In this document: in pieces, positions 13,549 to 18,855 of the stretch
How positions within the stretch are numbered: position 1 is the stretch's first letter
Layout: the number at the start of each line of letters is the position of its first letter
From: Candidatus Aminicenantota bacterium
Lineage (GTDB): Bacteria; Acidobacteriota; Aminicenantia; JAMOAD01
Assembly: GCA_027031485.1 (NCBI GenBank)
Contig: JALVQI010000141.1
Location: forward strand, 1-33,022
Length of the DNA: 33,022 nt
Direction: 5' to 3'
The notes under the pieces: model-generated
What the model was told of the DNA's origin: nothing
The model's input: the letters and a program-made list of their open reading frames with translations, nothing else
The model's database searches: none
Translations under genes and position numbers: made by a program

Positions 13549-13601
13549 ATATTTCTTATTAAACAGAAAATTGCCACTCTTGATATGAATGGGATGATTA
13601 A

Positions 13602-13631
13602 TGTCAAGTATTTTGAGCAAAATACTTGACA
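13602..13631. promoter_or_regulatory. Proximal operator of the abiE operon
   Basis: Perfect inverted repeat with 13-bp arms (TGTCAAGTATTTT / AAAATACTTGACA) and a 4-base centre. It covers the -35 box of the promoter below, so a bound repressor would block RNA polymerase. AbiEi proteins are known to repress their own promoter through inverted repeats. Confidence 0.75.
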
Positions 13632-13654
13632 ATATGCAAAAAAAAGATTATATT
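13626..13654 (+). promoter_or_regulatory. Promoter of the abiE operon
   Basis: TTGACA at 13626, 17-bp spacer, TATATT at 13649. The predicted transcription start falls at or next to the ATG at 13661, implying a leaderless mRNA and excluding the upstream start (13601) given by the track. Confidence 0.75.
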
Positions 13655-13660
13655 TTCAGT

Positions 13661-14386
13661 ATGAATGTTGCAAAGAGAATAGAAGAAAAAATTAATAAAA
13701 TTGAAGAAGGTGATATTTTTACATATAAGGATCTTTTAATAAAAAAAGAAGAATATTTTGCTGCTTCAAAAACAATTGAAAGATTAATAAAAAAAGAAAT
13801 AATCAAGCGTATTTCAACAGGTACTTTCTACAAACCAAAGAAAACTATCTTTGGAGAATTAAGACCAAATGAAGAAAAAATAATTACTCCTTATTTATTT
13901 AAAGATGGTAAAAGAATCGCCTATATAACAGGTTTGTTGCTGTACAATAAAATGGGATTGACAACCCAAGTACCCCGAGTTATAAGTATTGCAAGTCGCG
14001 AAAAAAGGATTTATATATCAAGAGGAAACATAAAAGCAAATGCCGTAAAAAGTTATGTGGAAGTTACGGAGGAAAATTTCCAATATCTCCAGATATTGGA
14101 TGCAATAAAAGATTTTAAAAAAATCCCGGATTTGGATTTAAAAAACGGAATAAAAATATTATCTAATATCTTAAAAAAATTATCGAAAGAAAATATTGAA
14201 AAACTTGTAAATTATAGTTTAAGTTATCCCCCGAGGGTAAGGGCGCTACTTGGTGCTATATTAGAAGAGATTGGCAGAAAAGAAAATCTTGAAAAATTAC
14301 AAAATAGCCTGAATCCCTTTTCAGTTTATAAATTGGGGATAACAAAAGAAATATTACCTACCGCTGAAAATTGGAAAATAAAATGA
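13661..14386 (+). CDS. abiEi: AbiEi-type antitoxin / repressor (type IV TA)
   Basis: 241 aa from the ATG at 13661. The track ORF starts at 13601, inside the operator and upstream of the promoter, so its first 20 codons are not transcribed from it. The N-terminus (RIEEKINKIEEGDIFTYKDL, then AASKTIERLIKKEIIKRIST and GTFYKP) is the winged-helix domain of the DUF6088/AbiEi antitoxin group. Next comes a region with RIAYITGLLLYNKMGLTTQV that matches the following AbiEi domain. It should bind the two palindromes upstream to repress the operon and counter the AbiEii toxin without binding it stably. It overlaps the toxin ORF by 4 bases (ATGA). Confidence 0.8.
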   Translation: MNVAKRIEEKINKIEEGDIFTYKDLLIKKEEYFAASKTIERLIKKEIIKRISTGTFYKPKKTIFGELRPNEEKIITPYLFKDGKRIAYITGLLLYNKMGLTTQVPRVISIASREKRIYISRGNIKANAVKSYVEVTEENFQYLQILDAIKDFKKIPDLDLKNGIKILSNILKKLSKENIEKLVNYSLSYPPRVRALLGAILEEIGRKENLEKLQNSLNPFSVYKLGITKEILPTAENWKIK

Positions 14387-15366
14387 ATTTACATAAAAAC
14401 AAGGAAATTTTTAAGGAAGCGATAATTGCAACATCGCAATTAAAAGGCATTGCTGAAATATATATTGAGAAAGATTATTGGTTAACACTAATACTGAAGA
14501 CCGTATTTGAAAGTGAGATTGGTAAAGAGGTTGTTTTTAAAGGTGGAACAGCATTATCAAAATGTAATAGTTTGATAAAAAGATTTTCGGAAGATATTGA
14601 TCTTGTTGTATTGAGAAATCCGAAAGAAACGGGAAATCAACTGAAAAAGAAACTTAAAATAATCTCAAAGTTTGTGGAAAAAATTGTTCCGGAAATTGAG
14701 GTTGAAGGAATAACAAACAAAAAGGGGATGATTAGAAAAACTGTTCATATTTATCCGAAAATATTCAAAGGATTATTCGGACAAATTAAAGATAATTTAA
14801 TTATAGAAGCAACTTGGCTCGGAAGTTTTGAGCCCTTTGAAAAAAGAAAAATTAATTCTATGATTTATGAGATGATGATTGAAACAAATCAGCATAAAAT
14901 TGCTGATGAATACGGACTAAATCCTTTTGAAGTAAATATTTTAAGCCCGAAACGGACAATCTGCGAGAAGATAATAAGTTTAGTCAGATTCTCGTACACA
15001 GAAAACCCAATAGAAGATCTTAATAATAAAATCAGACATATTTATGATATAAATCAAATGTTAAAAGATGAAAACATTAAAATTTTTTTTGAATCGGAAA
15101 AATTTGATAATCTGTTTATAAGAGTAGCAAATGATGATATGTTAAGTTTTAAAAGTAACAATGAATGGTTAAAAAATCATCCCAGCCAAGCTATAATTTT
15201 TAAAGAAAGTAATAGTGTTTGGAATAAAATAAAGACAACTTATTTTTCCACTTTTAGCAAACTGGTTTACGGAGAATTACCAAGCGAGATTGAGATTTTG
15301 GAAACACTGAAAAAAATATCAAAAAGACTATCAAAATTAGATTGGAAAATAAATTACAAAAAATAA
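14383..15366 (+). CDS. abiEii: AbiEii/AbiGii-family nucleotidyltransferase toxin
   Basis: 327 aa from the ATG at 14383 (ATGA overlap with the antitoxin stop). The track start at 14371 is a TTG. The polymerase-beta nucleotidyltransferase signature is clear: VVFKGGTALSK (50-60) followed by RFSEDIDLVV (67-76), where D71 and D73 are the metal ligands. The SPKRTICEKIISLVRFSY segment and the helical C-terminus fit the family. AbiEii toxins modify cellular RNA, with tRNA 3' ends known for some members, and stop growth. The pair gives abortive phage defence and stabilises the region. All visible catalytic residues are intact, so the toxin is probably functional. Confidence 0.85.
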   Translation: MNLHKNKEIFKEAIIATSQLKGIAEIYIEKDYWLTLILKTVFESEIGKEVVFKGGTALSKCNSLIKRFSEDIDLVVLRNPKETGNQLKKKLKIISKFVEKIVPEIEVEGITNKKGMIRKTVHIYPKIFKGLFGQIKDNLIIEATWLGSFEPFEKRKINSMIYEMMIETNQHKIADEYGLNPFEVNILSPKRTICEKIISLVRFSYTENPIEDLNNKIRHIYDINQMLKDENIKIFFESEKFDNLFIRVANDDMLSFKSNNEWLKNHPSQAIIFKESNSVWNKIKTTYFSTFSKLVYGELPSEIEILETLKKISKRLSKLDWKINYKK

Positions 15367-15480: not shown

Positions 15481-15885
15481 TCAGGATGAATACTTATATG
15501 CAATATCCAAAATATCGGTTACAATTTCATTAAGATGTTCAATTTCAGGGTTGAATTTAAAAAGATAATCAACTTCAGGATAATCCCAATCATTAATATT
15601 ATCAACAATTATGAGGAATGAATCACACCTGACTTTTTCATCATCACTTAAATTACTATCTTCGGTGTTACCAGCTTTGACAAAAGATAGAAACTGTTCC
15701 CATACCTTATGGTCAAGGACATTTCTGTCAACTATGGTTGCAAAGTTTGGCACTGCTATGATGTCCTGCCCTTCTCCCTCAAAAACTTCAACATTGTTTT
15801 TTTCAGCCCATTTTTTAATACTCTTTTTAAGGTTTTCATTCTTAGCAAAATAGGCAATTGTAGAGCTGAATTTAAAGCCTTTCAT
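15481..15885 (-). CDS. 134-residue protein of unknown function
   Basis: Strong AGGAGGGATA ribosome-binding site before the ATG at 15885. The sequence alternates strands and helices (KGFKFSSTIAYFAKNE, DIIAVPNFATIVDRNVLD, DSFLIIVDNINDWDYPEVD) and ends in helix HLNEIVTDILDIAYKYSS. It is acidic and soluble with no catalytic motif I recognise. A copy of the shared upstream element lies 75-130 bp before the start. It points against the AbiE operon and is probably its own transcription unit. Confidence 0.6.
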   Translation of the reverse strand: MKGFKFSSTIAYFAKNENLKKSIKKWAEKNNVEVFEGEGQDIIAVPNFATIVDRNVLDHKVWEQFLSFVKAGNTEDSNLSDDEKVRCDSFLIIVDNINDWDYPEVDYLFKFNPEIEHLNEIVTDILDIAYKYSS

Positions 15886-16097: not shown

Positions 16098-16126
16098 TTG
16101 ACAGGGGATTTTTTTTGTTTTAGTAT
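16098..16126 (+). promoter_or_regulatory. Promoter of the nuclease/beta-CASP pair
   Basis: TTGACA at 16098, 17-bp spacer, TAGTAT at 16121. It gives a leader of about 54 nt ending in the AAAGGAGG ribosome-binding site before the ATG at 16187. Confidence 0.65.
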
Positions 16127-16186
16127 TTATTATCAACAGTAAAAGATGATTAAGGGTTTGGAATAATTAAATAAAAGGAGGATAAA

Positions 16187-16885
16187 ATGAAAAATAAGAA
16201 AAAGGAAATCGTTGAAACTAAAATTCATGAGTATTTATTTGAACTTGTTAAAGAAACATCAAAAGAATTATTGAAAATCTATTTTGATAATCCAGAAAGA
16301 AAAACTCTTTTAAAGTTTCCTAAATACAATAACGGAGAAAAAAGAGTTAGTGAACAAGAATTGAGATTTGCATTGGTTACAATACATCAATTTTTATCTT
16401 CCAATATATACTATTCCATAGAAACTCCTACTAAAGAAACATATGCTTTTAGCAAAGGATCAGACGGACGAAGTGCAGCTTCAGATTTAAGTTTTTACAA
16501 TAAAGAAAAAAAGATTATGAACATTGAGTTAAAGGCTCATAGTCCGAGAGGTTTTGAAATAGACAAAGATATTGAAAAACTTACAAAAGAAAATTGTAAT
16601 GGGGCTTGGATTCATTTATTTAAAAACGAAAATCGTAAGACAGTAAAAAATTTATTTGAAAATTTTAATAAATCATTTAAAGAAAATCCAAAATCTAAGA
16701 AACCCATTTCTTTTCATATTTTAATTTTAAAAACAAAAACATTGCTTTCAAGAATAGGAAAAGAAAATGAAACAGATTATAGTAAACCTAATGAAATTTT
16801 TAGTATAGATTATAATGATTGGCAAGAATACAGAAATAGACCAGGAGAATACAAAAAAGGAGATTGGAAAATAACAATTTTTTAA
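16187..16885 (+). CDS. Putative PD-(D/E)XK endonuclease
   Basis: 232 aa. The core is SEQELRFALVTIHQFL (helix with E58), then SDLSFYNKEKKIMNIELKAH: D100 and E114-L-K116, the classical PD-(D/E)XK trio. A downstream segment GAWIHLFKNENRKTVKNLFE and a strand FHILILKTKT fit the rest of the fold. No signal peptide. It has its own promoter and a strong ribosome-binding site, and the beta-CASP gene starts 3 bases after its stop, so the two form an operon. The core residues look intact. I do not recognise a named subfamily. Pairing with an RNase J-like protein is unusual and suggests a nucleic-acid-degrading system. Confidence 0.7.
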   Translation: MKNKKKEIVETKIHEYLFELVKETSKELLKIYFDNPERKTLLKFPKYNNGEKRVSEQELRFALVTIHQFLSSNIYYSIETPTKETYAFSKGSDGRSAASDLSFYNKEKKIMNIELKAHSPRGFEIDKDIEKLTKENCNGAWIHLFKNENRKTVKNLFENFNKSFKENPKSKKPISFHILILKTKTLLSRIGKENETDYSKPNEIFSIDYNDWQEYRNRPGEYKKGDWKITIF

Positions 16886-16888
16886 CTA

Positions 16889-18193
16889 ATGAAACTATCC
16901 TTTAAAATCCACAGAGGGGCAGATGAGATTGGGGGTTCGTGCGTTGAGGTCTGGACAGAAAACACGAGAATATTGCTTGATTTTGGTATGCCCTTGGTGA
17001 AGAAAAACGGAAATGAATTTGATTTTAGCAAATACAAAAATTTAGATACAAATGAATTAGTTGAAAAAGGGATATTACCAAACATTAAAGGGCTTTATGA
17101 TGATACGGAACAATCAATTTCCGGAGTAATCATCTCCCATGCTCATATTGATCACTATGGATTGACAAACTATATAAATAAAAAGATTAAATTCTATATG
17201 GGGAAAGCCACCTACAAGTTAATTAAAATTAACAATCTCTTCACTTCACAAGAAATAAGTTTAAAGAATGTAGTTTATTTTGAGAAAGAAAAATCATTTA
17301 AAATCGGTAATATTTCAATTACCCCGTATTGGGCTGATCATTCCGCTTTTGATGCATATTCCTTTTTAGTTGAAGCTAATGGCAAGAGTCTTTTTTATTC
17401 GGGTGATTTTCGTTCCCATGGTAGAAAATCAAAAGTTTTTTATCGGTTTACCCATAATGCACCGCAAAATGTTGATTATTTACTTCTTGAAGGAACAACT
17501 ATTAGTAGAGATAATAAGCCATTTAAAACGGAAACCGAAATTGAAAATGAATTGACTAAAATTTTTAAACAAAAGGGAAAGCTTAATTTGATTTATACTT
17601 CGGGGCAAAATATTGACAGAATAATTTCAATCTATAAAGCATGCAAAAGCTCGGGAAAAATATTAGTAGTGGATGTTTATTTAGCAATGATTTTGAAAGC
17701 ATTATCAGAATTTGCAGAAATACCATATCCTTCAAAAGATTTTAAAGACATAAAAGTCTTTTTTTCTTATTATTCCAGCTTAAAATTAAGAAAAAATGAA
17801 AAATTATTGTATCAATTTGCCCATTATAAAATAACAAAAGAAGAGTTATTCAGACAAAAAGATAAAATTGTGATGATTGTCAGACCTTCTATGAAAAAGG
17901 ATTTGGAGAAAATAAGGGGGCTTGAGGGAGGAAACTTTATTTATTCTCTTTGGAAAGGTTATATGCAAAATCCCTATGTAAGGGAGCTTCTGAACTTTTT
18001 AAAAGAAAAAGAATTTAAAATTTACAATATTCACACAAGCGGGCATGCGGATATAAAGACCTTGAAAAAATTAGTTAATGCGATAAAACCAAAACATATT
18101 GTCCCGATTCATACATTTAAAAAGGATGAATACAAAAAAATTTTTCCCATACCTATTTTGGAATTAAAAGACGGAGAAACAGGGGAAATATAG
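16889..18193 (+). CDS. Beta-CASP metallo-beta-lactamase-fold nuclease (RNase J-like)
   Basis: 434 aa. All landmarks are visible: ILLDFGMPL (motif 1), SHAHIDHYG with H84, H86, D88 and H89 (motif 2), ADHSAFDAY (motif 3), SGDFRSHGRK (motif 4), then the beta-CASP motifs LLLEGTT (A), HTSGHAD (B) and PIHTF (C). Such enzymes are zinc-dependent RNA or DNA 5' exo/endonucleases. It is shorter than housekeeping RNase J and lacks its C-terminal domain, so it is probably an accessory enzyme. It has no ribosome-binding site of its own and relies on coupling with the PD-(D/E)XK gene. Cytoplasmic. The fold is very likely. The role with its partner is inferred. Confidence 0.8.
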   Translation: MKLSFKIHRGADEIGGSCVEVWTENTRILLDFGMPLVKKNGNEFDFSKYKNLDTNELVEKGILPNIKGLYDDTEQSISGVIISHAHIDHYGLTNYINKKIKFYMGKATYKLIKINNLFTSQEISLKNVVYFEKEKSFKIGNISITPYWADHSAFDAYSFLVEANGKSLFYSGDFRSHGRKSKVFYRFTHNAPQNVDYLLLEGTTISRDNKPFKTETEIENELTKIFKQKGKLNLIYTSGQNIDRIISIYKACKSSGKILVVDVYLAMILKALSEFAEIPYPSKDFKDIKVFFSYYSSLKLRKNEKLLYQFAHYKITKEELFRQKDKIVMIVRPSMKKDLEKIRGLEGGNFIYSLWKGYMQNPYVRELLNFLKEKEFKIYNIHTSGHADIKTLKKLVNAIKPKHIVPIHTFKKDEYKKIFPIPILELKDGETGEI

Positions 18194-18255: not shown

Positions 18256-18855
18256 TTATTTTTCTGGATTAAAAAACTCTTTGTATTTTACTCTTAAGTA
18301 GGCTTGGAGATATAGAATAATTCCGATATTGTAAAAGGCTTTTTTGCTGCATACATAAGCTGCATAATTTTCCAATTTCTCGTATAATCTTTCAATAAAA
18401 TCTTTTTTAAATCCATTATTAAAAGCTTTTTCCATAAATTCCCTTTTAATACTCTCCAAATTTTTTGTCTTCTTTCCAAGTGATCTTCTCATTGATAGAG
18501 CTTCCTCTTTTGAAAAGCCTCCGAATCTTCTTATAATTTCCTCAATCTGCTCATGATATAAAATCAATCCGTAAGTTCCCTCTAAAATTTCCTTTAAAAT
18601 AGGATGCTCATACTGAACTTTTTTATTAATCCTTTTTCTCTTTATAAACTCTTCACTTATCCCTAAGGATAAAGGCCCGGGTCTTGAAATAGCCAATAAG
18701 TGCACTAAATCATCAAATTCCTCTAATTTCATTTCTCTAACAACTTCTTTTATGATTTCCTTTTCAATCAAAACATCAGTTTCAAAATTCCAGCTATTCA
18801 AAAATCTTAAAACATCTTTTTCATCTAAATTAATTTCAATAATTCTTTCCTTCAT
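18256..18855 (-). CDS. Stand-alone fragment of DNA polymerase III alpha (DnaE)-like protein
   Basis: 199 aa. From residue about 45 the sequence follows DnaE through the fingers region: FDDLVHLLAISRPGPLSLGI, then YEHPILKEILEGTYGLILYH with EQ, RRFGGFSKEEALSMRRSLGK, and LYLQAYLRVKYKEFF. The palm domain with its catalytic Asp residues, the PHP domain, the beta-binding and OB parts are all absent. The normally conserved N-K-S-H-A block is changed to SKKAF. It has a strong GAGGAGG ribosome-binding site, an open frame and the shared upstream element, so it appears to be expressed, not a random remnant. It cannot polymerise DNA. It may be a decoy, inhibitor or recently decaying fragment. Confidence 0.75.
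   Translation of the reverse strand: MKERIIEINLDEKDVLRFLNSWNFETDVLIEKEIIKEVVREMKLEEFDDLVHLLAISRPGPLSLGISEEFIKRKRINKKVQYEHPILKEILEGTYGLILYHEQIEEIIRRFGGFSKEEALSMRRSLGKKTKNLESIKREFMEKAFNNGFKKDFIERLYEKLENYAAYVCSKKAFYNIGIILYLQAYLRVKYKEFFNPEK

Follow-up and report, generated by a model that had tools for sequence, protein, structure and literature searches.

The two-gene locus

In the window, by which we mean the whole stretch of 33,022 nucleotides analysed here (contig JALVQI010000141.1 of a Candidatus Aminicenantota bacterium), two genes follow each other on the forward strand. Gene 1 (16187–16885, +) is an open reading frame (ORF) for a PD-(D/E)XK nuclease-like protein of 232 aa. Gene 2 (16889–18193, +) encodes an RNase J-like beta-CASP metallo-beta-lactamase (MBL) nuclease of 434 aa, which, judged by its length, lacks the RNase J C-terminal extension. 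Only 3 bp (cta, 16886–16888) separate the stop codon from the start codon. The original prediction, made from the sequence alone, had described a two-gene PD-(D/E)XK and beta-CASP operon with such a gap, and this held with exact coordinates.

A perfect Shine-Dalgarno sequence, AGGAGG (16176–16181, +), precedes the start codon of gene 1 with a 5-nt spacing, whereas gene 2 has no AGGAGG and no ribosome-binding site of its own. With only the first gene provided with such a strong site, gene 2 probably depends on the translation of gene 1. The predicted translational coupling is consistent with this arrangement and is likely, but it is inferred from sequence alone. A sigma-70-like promoter candidate, TTGACA-N17-TAGTAT (16098–16126, +; 10 of 12 matches), is located approximately 60 bp upstream of gene 1. 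The promoter that had been assigned to the pair therefore exists as a sequence, but it remains unproven, because promoter-like matches in the region are no commoner than in shuffles (11 versus 13.6).

The neighbouring AbiE pair, which had also been predicted, was confirmed at 13601–15366 (best PADLOC E-values 2.4e-52 for AbiEi and 2.2e-100 for AbiEii). One unrelated minus-strand ORF of 134 aa (15481–15885, −), without a convincing family match, intervenes between it and the nuclease pair. On the other side, convergent with the pair, lies a free-standing DNA polymerase III alpha 'finger' ORF of 199 aa (18256–18855, −; PF17657, E 9e-33) that shares 35% identity with the complete DnaE encoded by the host on another contig.

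The beta-CASP enzyme

The assignment of gene 2 is firm. Its product matches Pfam Lactamase_B_2 (2.7e-14) and RMMBL (2.4e-8), and its best NCBIfam match is RNase J (7.4e-24), with 84 bits against a cut-off of 400. We gathered 95 distinct homologues irrespective of their neighbours and followed the catalytic motifs through them. Motif 2, the zinc site HAHIDH (H84, H86, D88, H89; 17138–17155, +), motif 3 (H151; 17339–17341, +), motif 4 (D173; 17405–17407, +) and beta-CASP motif A (E201; 17489–17491, +) are present in 95/95. Motif B (H386; 18044–18046, +) is found in 93/95, the other two being gaps, and motif C (H408; 18110–18112, +) likewise in 93/95. A subfamily signature, QNIDR (Q240–R244; 17606–17620, +), keeps N, D and R in 95/95 and Q in 92/95. 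Motifs 2 and 4 belonged to the search pattern, so their invariance arises partly by selection; motifs A–C and QNIDR lay outside the pattern.

A histidine in motif C marks the RNA-type beta-CASP enzymes (PMC4770246; PMC3095777). It does not exclude a DNA substrate here, because several RNA-type ribonucleases, CPSF73 and archaeal RNase J among them, degrade single-stranded DNA as well (PMC4770246).

A profile was built from 13 members, again picked irrespective of neighbours. In one-genome-per-species data it gave at least 484 matches, of which the best 80 were taken, spanning more than 20 phyla. Relatives occur in 9 of 396 Acidobacteriota genomes, the window's own included, and on 26 plasmid records, of which nine show 29–37% identity along nearly the entire protein; the profile also matches 8 viral contigs. 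One homologue is a 997-aa protein (L058:4656-7649) with a fused C-terminal AAA ATPase domain. RNase J itself was not found at E ≤ 1e-60 in the window's genome or in the class relatives sampled, and is present at this threshold in 32 of 60 genomes of the phylum.

The PD-(D/E)XK protein

The product of gene 1 matches no model in Pfam, NCBIfam or PADLOC, and single-sequence searches of genome contigs, plasmids, phages and 60 relatives returned only the protein itself. It seemed an orphan until the beta-CASP gene served as bait. Two relatives were then recognised, both directly upstream (position −1) of other beta-CASP genes, and in them the candidate helix-A glutamate E58 (16358–16360, +) and the catalytic core D100...E114-x-K116 (16484–16534, +) are invariant. 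The conserved D...(D/E)xK core that defines the PD-(D/E)XK superfamily is thus met by D100, E114 and K116.

Further support comes from a structure model and from profile comparison, both weak. The model shows the alpha-beta-beta-beta-alpha-beta order, but with a poor pLDDT of 50 from only 3 input sequences. The profile of this window-type family aligns in register over the core with that of a second partner family, type B, at E 6e-4 and a probability of 29%. A viral scan with the window-type profile gave no match.

The beta-CASP gene recurs beside a PD-(D/E)XK gene

In order to ask whether the pairing is conserved, genes were called around each beta-CASP member, and upstream same-strand neighbours of 180–450 aa were tested for the PD-(D/E)XK core pattern. 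It was found in 63 of 73 testable neighbours at −1 but in only 34 of 230 at other positions (Fisher p 2e-29). Around 24 housekeeping RNase J genes, by comparison, 0 of 22 neighbours carried it. Several of the misses at −1 are contig-end truncations or failures of the pattern (e.g. L033, L041, L042), and some beta-CASP loci have no recognisable partner (e.g. L064, L072, L094, L105). The partner usually lies upstream; in some Proteobacteria and Chloroflexota it lies downstream. Spacing is tight: among 65 upstream partners, 55 have a gap to the beta-CASP gene of between −30 and +20 nt, most commonly −4 nt.

A blind alignment of 84 upstream neighbours points to the same core. Besides the start methionine, only the columns of D100 and E114 are near-invariant (≥90%), whereas an alignment of 145 other neighbours has no near-invariant column.

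The association is also reciprocal. A type-A partner, from the largest family, occurs on 7 of 72,556 plasmid records, with a beta-CASP gene adjoining in 7/7 (p 3e-25). In the phylum, 6 of 396 genomes hold a type-A or type-B partner, and five of the six are among the 9 beta-CASP genomes (p 9e-9). Partner and beta-CASP gene share one locus in those five Acidobacteriota genomes, and the sixth partner is cut off at a contig end. In the data searched, type-A and type-B partners hardly exist apart from the beta-CASP gene.

These results firmly support a module of a beta-CASP gene and a PD-(D/E)XK gene, of which the window pair is one copy among many. Co-occurrence across genomes, proposed with the original prediction as its check, is conserved over many phyla and reciprocal, which supports that interpretation. 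The exact pairing held only in part: the conserved unit is a constant beta-CASP enzyme with any of many PD-(D/E)XK families. Chance neighbourhood can be all but dismissed. The rarity of the exact window pairing, whose partner family is found at only 3 of the beta-CASP loci, might suggest it, but the enrichment at −1 over both controls and the reciprocal association speak against it.

Partners are exchanged at the gene boundary

BLAST clustering separates at least nine partner families and leaves some singletons. In type A (27 aligned partners), E, D, E and K are invariant; in type B (14 partners), D, E and K are. Profile comparison connects the two types (E 2e-7, probability 94%). Matches of the partners to Pfam are sporadic and fall partly in PD-(D/E)XK families (SduA_C, HSDR_N, DUF234, PDDEXK_9, YhcG_C, EcoRII-C). 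A type-A structure model (pLDDT 74) gave no significant Foldseek match, none falling below E 0.07; the non-significant ones are mostly PD-(D/E)XK chains and include McrC, Card1, HamA, EXO5, Cas4-like and VRR_NUC proteins. Catalytic residues are intact in both proteins of the module, although activity is untested.

On the beta-CASP tree, partner type changes at least 41 times, against a mean of 44.9 for shuffled labels, so the ancestry of a beta-CASP gene says almost nothing about which partner it has. Comparison of sister loci reveals where the change takes place. In six pairs with DNA similarity of 79–90% (L063/L065, L092/L109, L070/L072, L028/L029, L030/L032 and L031/L037), the similarity starts at the beta-CASP start codon or within 3 bases of it. 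In another pair, L055/L099, beta-CASP identity is 93% and similarity resumes upstream of the partner; since the two loci are alike on both sides, only the partner has been replaced. The beta-CASP gene is the constant part, and the partner is swapped exactly at the gene boundary, even between near-identical loci. Of 68 loci compared, 59 have a partner that is AT-richer than its beta-CASP gene (mean −3.6 points); in the window, G+C is 25.2% for the PD-(D/E)XK gene and 30.4% for the beta-CASP gene.

Distribution and mobility

The module is accessory and patchy: it occurs in 9 of the 396 genomes from the phylum and is missing from two congeners of the window's organism. It is carried by conjugative and mobilizable plasmids and by phage-like contigs near terminase, tail or integrase genes; in L109 a large serine integrase lies directly upstream. 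Five loci (L071, L074, L075, L078, L110), four of Omnitrophota type and one a viral contig, also have a terminase large-subunit-like gene no more than three genes away from the pair. Neighbours of the module include AbiE, MADS, WYL, IetA, LmuB, PsyrA and RecD-like genes. Strong defence-gene neighbours thus occur but are not overwhelming, and neighbour content was scored without a matched control.

Relation to described systems

A match to a housekeeping or described system would have refuted the original prediction, and none was found in the sources searched. No Pfam, NCBIfam or PADLOC model describes the module, and the open-access literature searched holds no description of the pair; a description in a subscription journal or a preprint is not excluded. 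Within these sources, no known system consists of a beta-CASP nuclease and an interchangeable PD-(D/E)XK partner.

RNase J (TIGR00649, RNase J1/J2) is the best curated family match of the window beta-CASP protein and its second-best solved relative. The two share the beta-CASP/MBL core, motifs 1–4, motifs A–C with the motif C histidine, and the RMMBL segment. In contrast to RNase J, the window protein misses the family cut-off, ends shortly after motif C and is about 100–150 residues shorter (434 aa versus about 550–560 aa), and its subfamily bears the QNIDR signature. Genes of this subfamily are moreover accessory and paired with PD-(D/E)XK genes, which RNase J is not. A housekeeping RNase J was rejected on the family score and on the lack of PD-(D/E)XK neighbours around true RNase J. 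The closest solved structure by sequence profile is an EF2904-type zinc hydrolase of the same size (PDB 2az4, E 1.8e-34), a homologue of which, unlike the window enzyme, has no PD-(D/E)XK partner and lies in an ABC-transporter operon with a 2',3'-cyclic-nucleotide phosphodiesterase.

Cas14 of type VII CRISPR-Cas is a beta-CASP ribonuclease recruited as an immune executioner, and so offers a precedent for the role we propose below (PMC10910872). Type VII identity was rejected, since no Cas5 or Cas7 is annotated or matched beside the module genes and the family score is 38 bits against a cut-off of 800; the Cas10-like C-terminal domain of Cas14 is also absent from the window enzyme. The trypsin-MBL modules of Hachiman, AVAST, Lamassu and DRT (HamM) likewise join an MBL-fold nuclease repeatedly to exchangeable partners in immunity (PMC12799240). 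HamM, however, resembles the ComEC-type MBL rather than beta-CASP, and its partner is a protease. This identity was rejected because the neighbours here are PD-(D/E)XK proteins and no trypsin-like protease fused to a defence enzyme adjoins.

Shedu (SduA), other PD-(D/E)XK defence nucleases and NucS share their core with the partners. Two of the 84 partners weakly match SduA_C (PF14082), and one type-B profile weakly matches NucS. Neither Shedu nor NucS is known to need a beta-CASP gene, and in the window module the PD-(D/E)XK protein is the variable part. Shedu identity, for which a match to SduA_C would be required, was rejected, as the window partner has no Pfam match at all. Restriction-modification systems resemble the module in placing a variable, frequently exchanged PD-(D/E)XK nuclease beside a constant activity. 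The module has no methyltransferase; none lies beside the window pair, and this identity was rejected for want of a cognate one.

A possible anti-invader role

On balance we favour, with moderate confidence, a mobile anti-invader module of two nucleases, in which the variable one determines the trigger or target and execution falls to the constant beta-CASP enzyme. The defence role that had been predicted remains an inference from mobility, patchiness, partner turnover and genomic context; there are no activity, phage or toxicity data. The module would defend the cell, plasmid or prophage that carries it from other mobile elements. Specificity would be set by the variable PD-(D/E)XK protein, which would recognise and cut the invader or its transcripts. 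Cleavage by PD-(D/E)XK enzymes usually produces 5'-phosphate ends, where 5'-3' beta-CASP exonucleases preferentially enter. The constant enzyme would degrade nucleic acid from such partner-made ends, or cut RNA once activated, with destruction of the invader or halt of the infected cell as the outcome. As the beta-CASP protein ends soon after motif C, apparently without the region that in RNase J serves for dimerisation, it may use its partner instead; we infer that both proteins would act as a complex in which the partner replaces the missing part, though no complex model supports this. Exchange of the partner would shift the target range while the executioner is retained.

Three other readings deserve weighing, each of which we consider unlikely. 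The pair might be an addiction or safeguard module, with the PD-(D/E)XK protein as a toxic nuclease and the beta-CASP enzyme as its antidote or as a clean-up activity for its substrate, product or activator. A variable, AT-rich and tightly coupled first gene would suit this reading, as would the occurrence on plasmids and phage-like contigs, and one constant enzyme tolerating many nucleases fits a clean-up activity. Against it, antitoxins normally co-vary with their toxins, whereas the second gene here is constant; to our knowledge there is no precedent for a zinc nuclease as an antidote; and the beta-CASP gene sometimes stands without a recognisable partner.

Alternatively, the genes could form a host pair for nucleic-acid repair, recombination or RNA processing rather than a conflict system. 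Both enzyme classes serve in repair and RNA decay, and a few loci have DnaE-like genes close by. Such a pair would not be expected to be so sparse within the phylum or missing from congeners, the swapping of partners between near-identical loci is not housekeeping behaviour, and true RNase J has no such neighbour. The terminase-like genes in five loci and the integrase in L109 could instead mark the module as cargo for the phage or plasmid life cycle itself, for example for DNA processing at packaging or for killing competitors in co-infection. Most loci, the window included, have no phage genes beside the pair, and the diversity of partners is unexpected for packaging.

Beyond the anti-invader reading we can put forward a bolder version of it, which we rate as rather less probable than its negation. 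The module would be an unnamed immune system whose universal beta-CASP executioner can take nearly any PD-(D/E)XK nuclease as its targeting subunit and is re-targeted by a gene swap at the beta-CASP start codon. If the module is immune, cassette exchange would be a general route to a new target range. In that case the partners would also comprise at least nine new PD-(D/E)XK families missed by current libraries, and would raise the question of how a single enzyme can cooperate with nucleases that look so unrelated to one another. The sister loci in which partners have been swapped offer natural chimeras.

Additional genes around the module

We notice several further genes near beta-CASP loci. 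In L020 and L021, DnaE-like genes that are truncated and lack the PDxDxD catalytic motif (L020:8902-10263, L021:10600-12672) stand between the beta-CASP gene, which they overlap by 4 bp, and the PD-(D/E)XK gene, forming three-gene operons. Together with the finger ORF of the window, they hint at a possible DnaE-mimic accessory. Four unrelated loci (L005/L022, L017, L097, L114) carry agmatine or peptidyl-arginine deiminase-like genes (PF04371) close to the beta-CASP gene. In Alphaproteobacteria, a small conserved protein with the pattern GIFW...HPRGR...DPHYR/DSHYR adjoins the beta-CASP gene (L011:5546-5938, L012:5477-5989, L013:5597-6001, L015:7262-7633); the two members scanned had no Pfam match. 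On two distant plasmids, the beta-CASP gene has a 4-bp overlap at its 3' end with a metallophosphoesterase gene (L014:7227-7868, L017:7455-8024).
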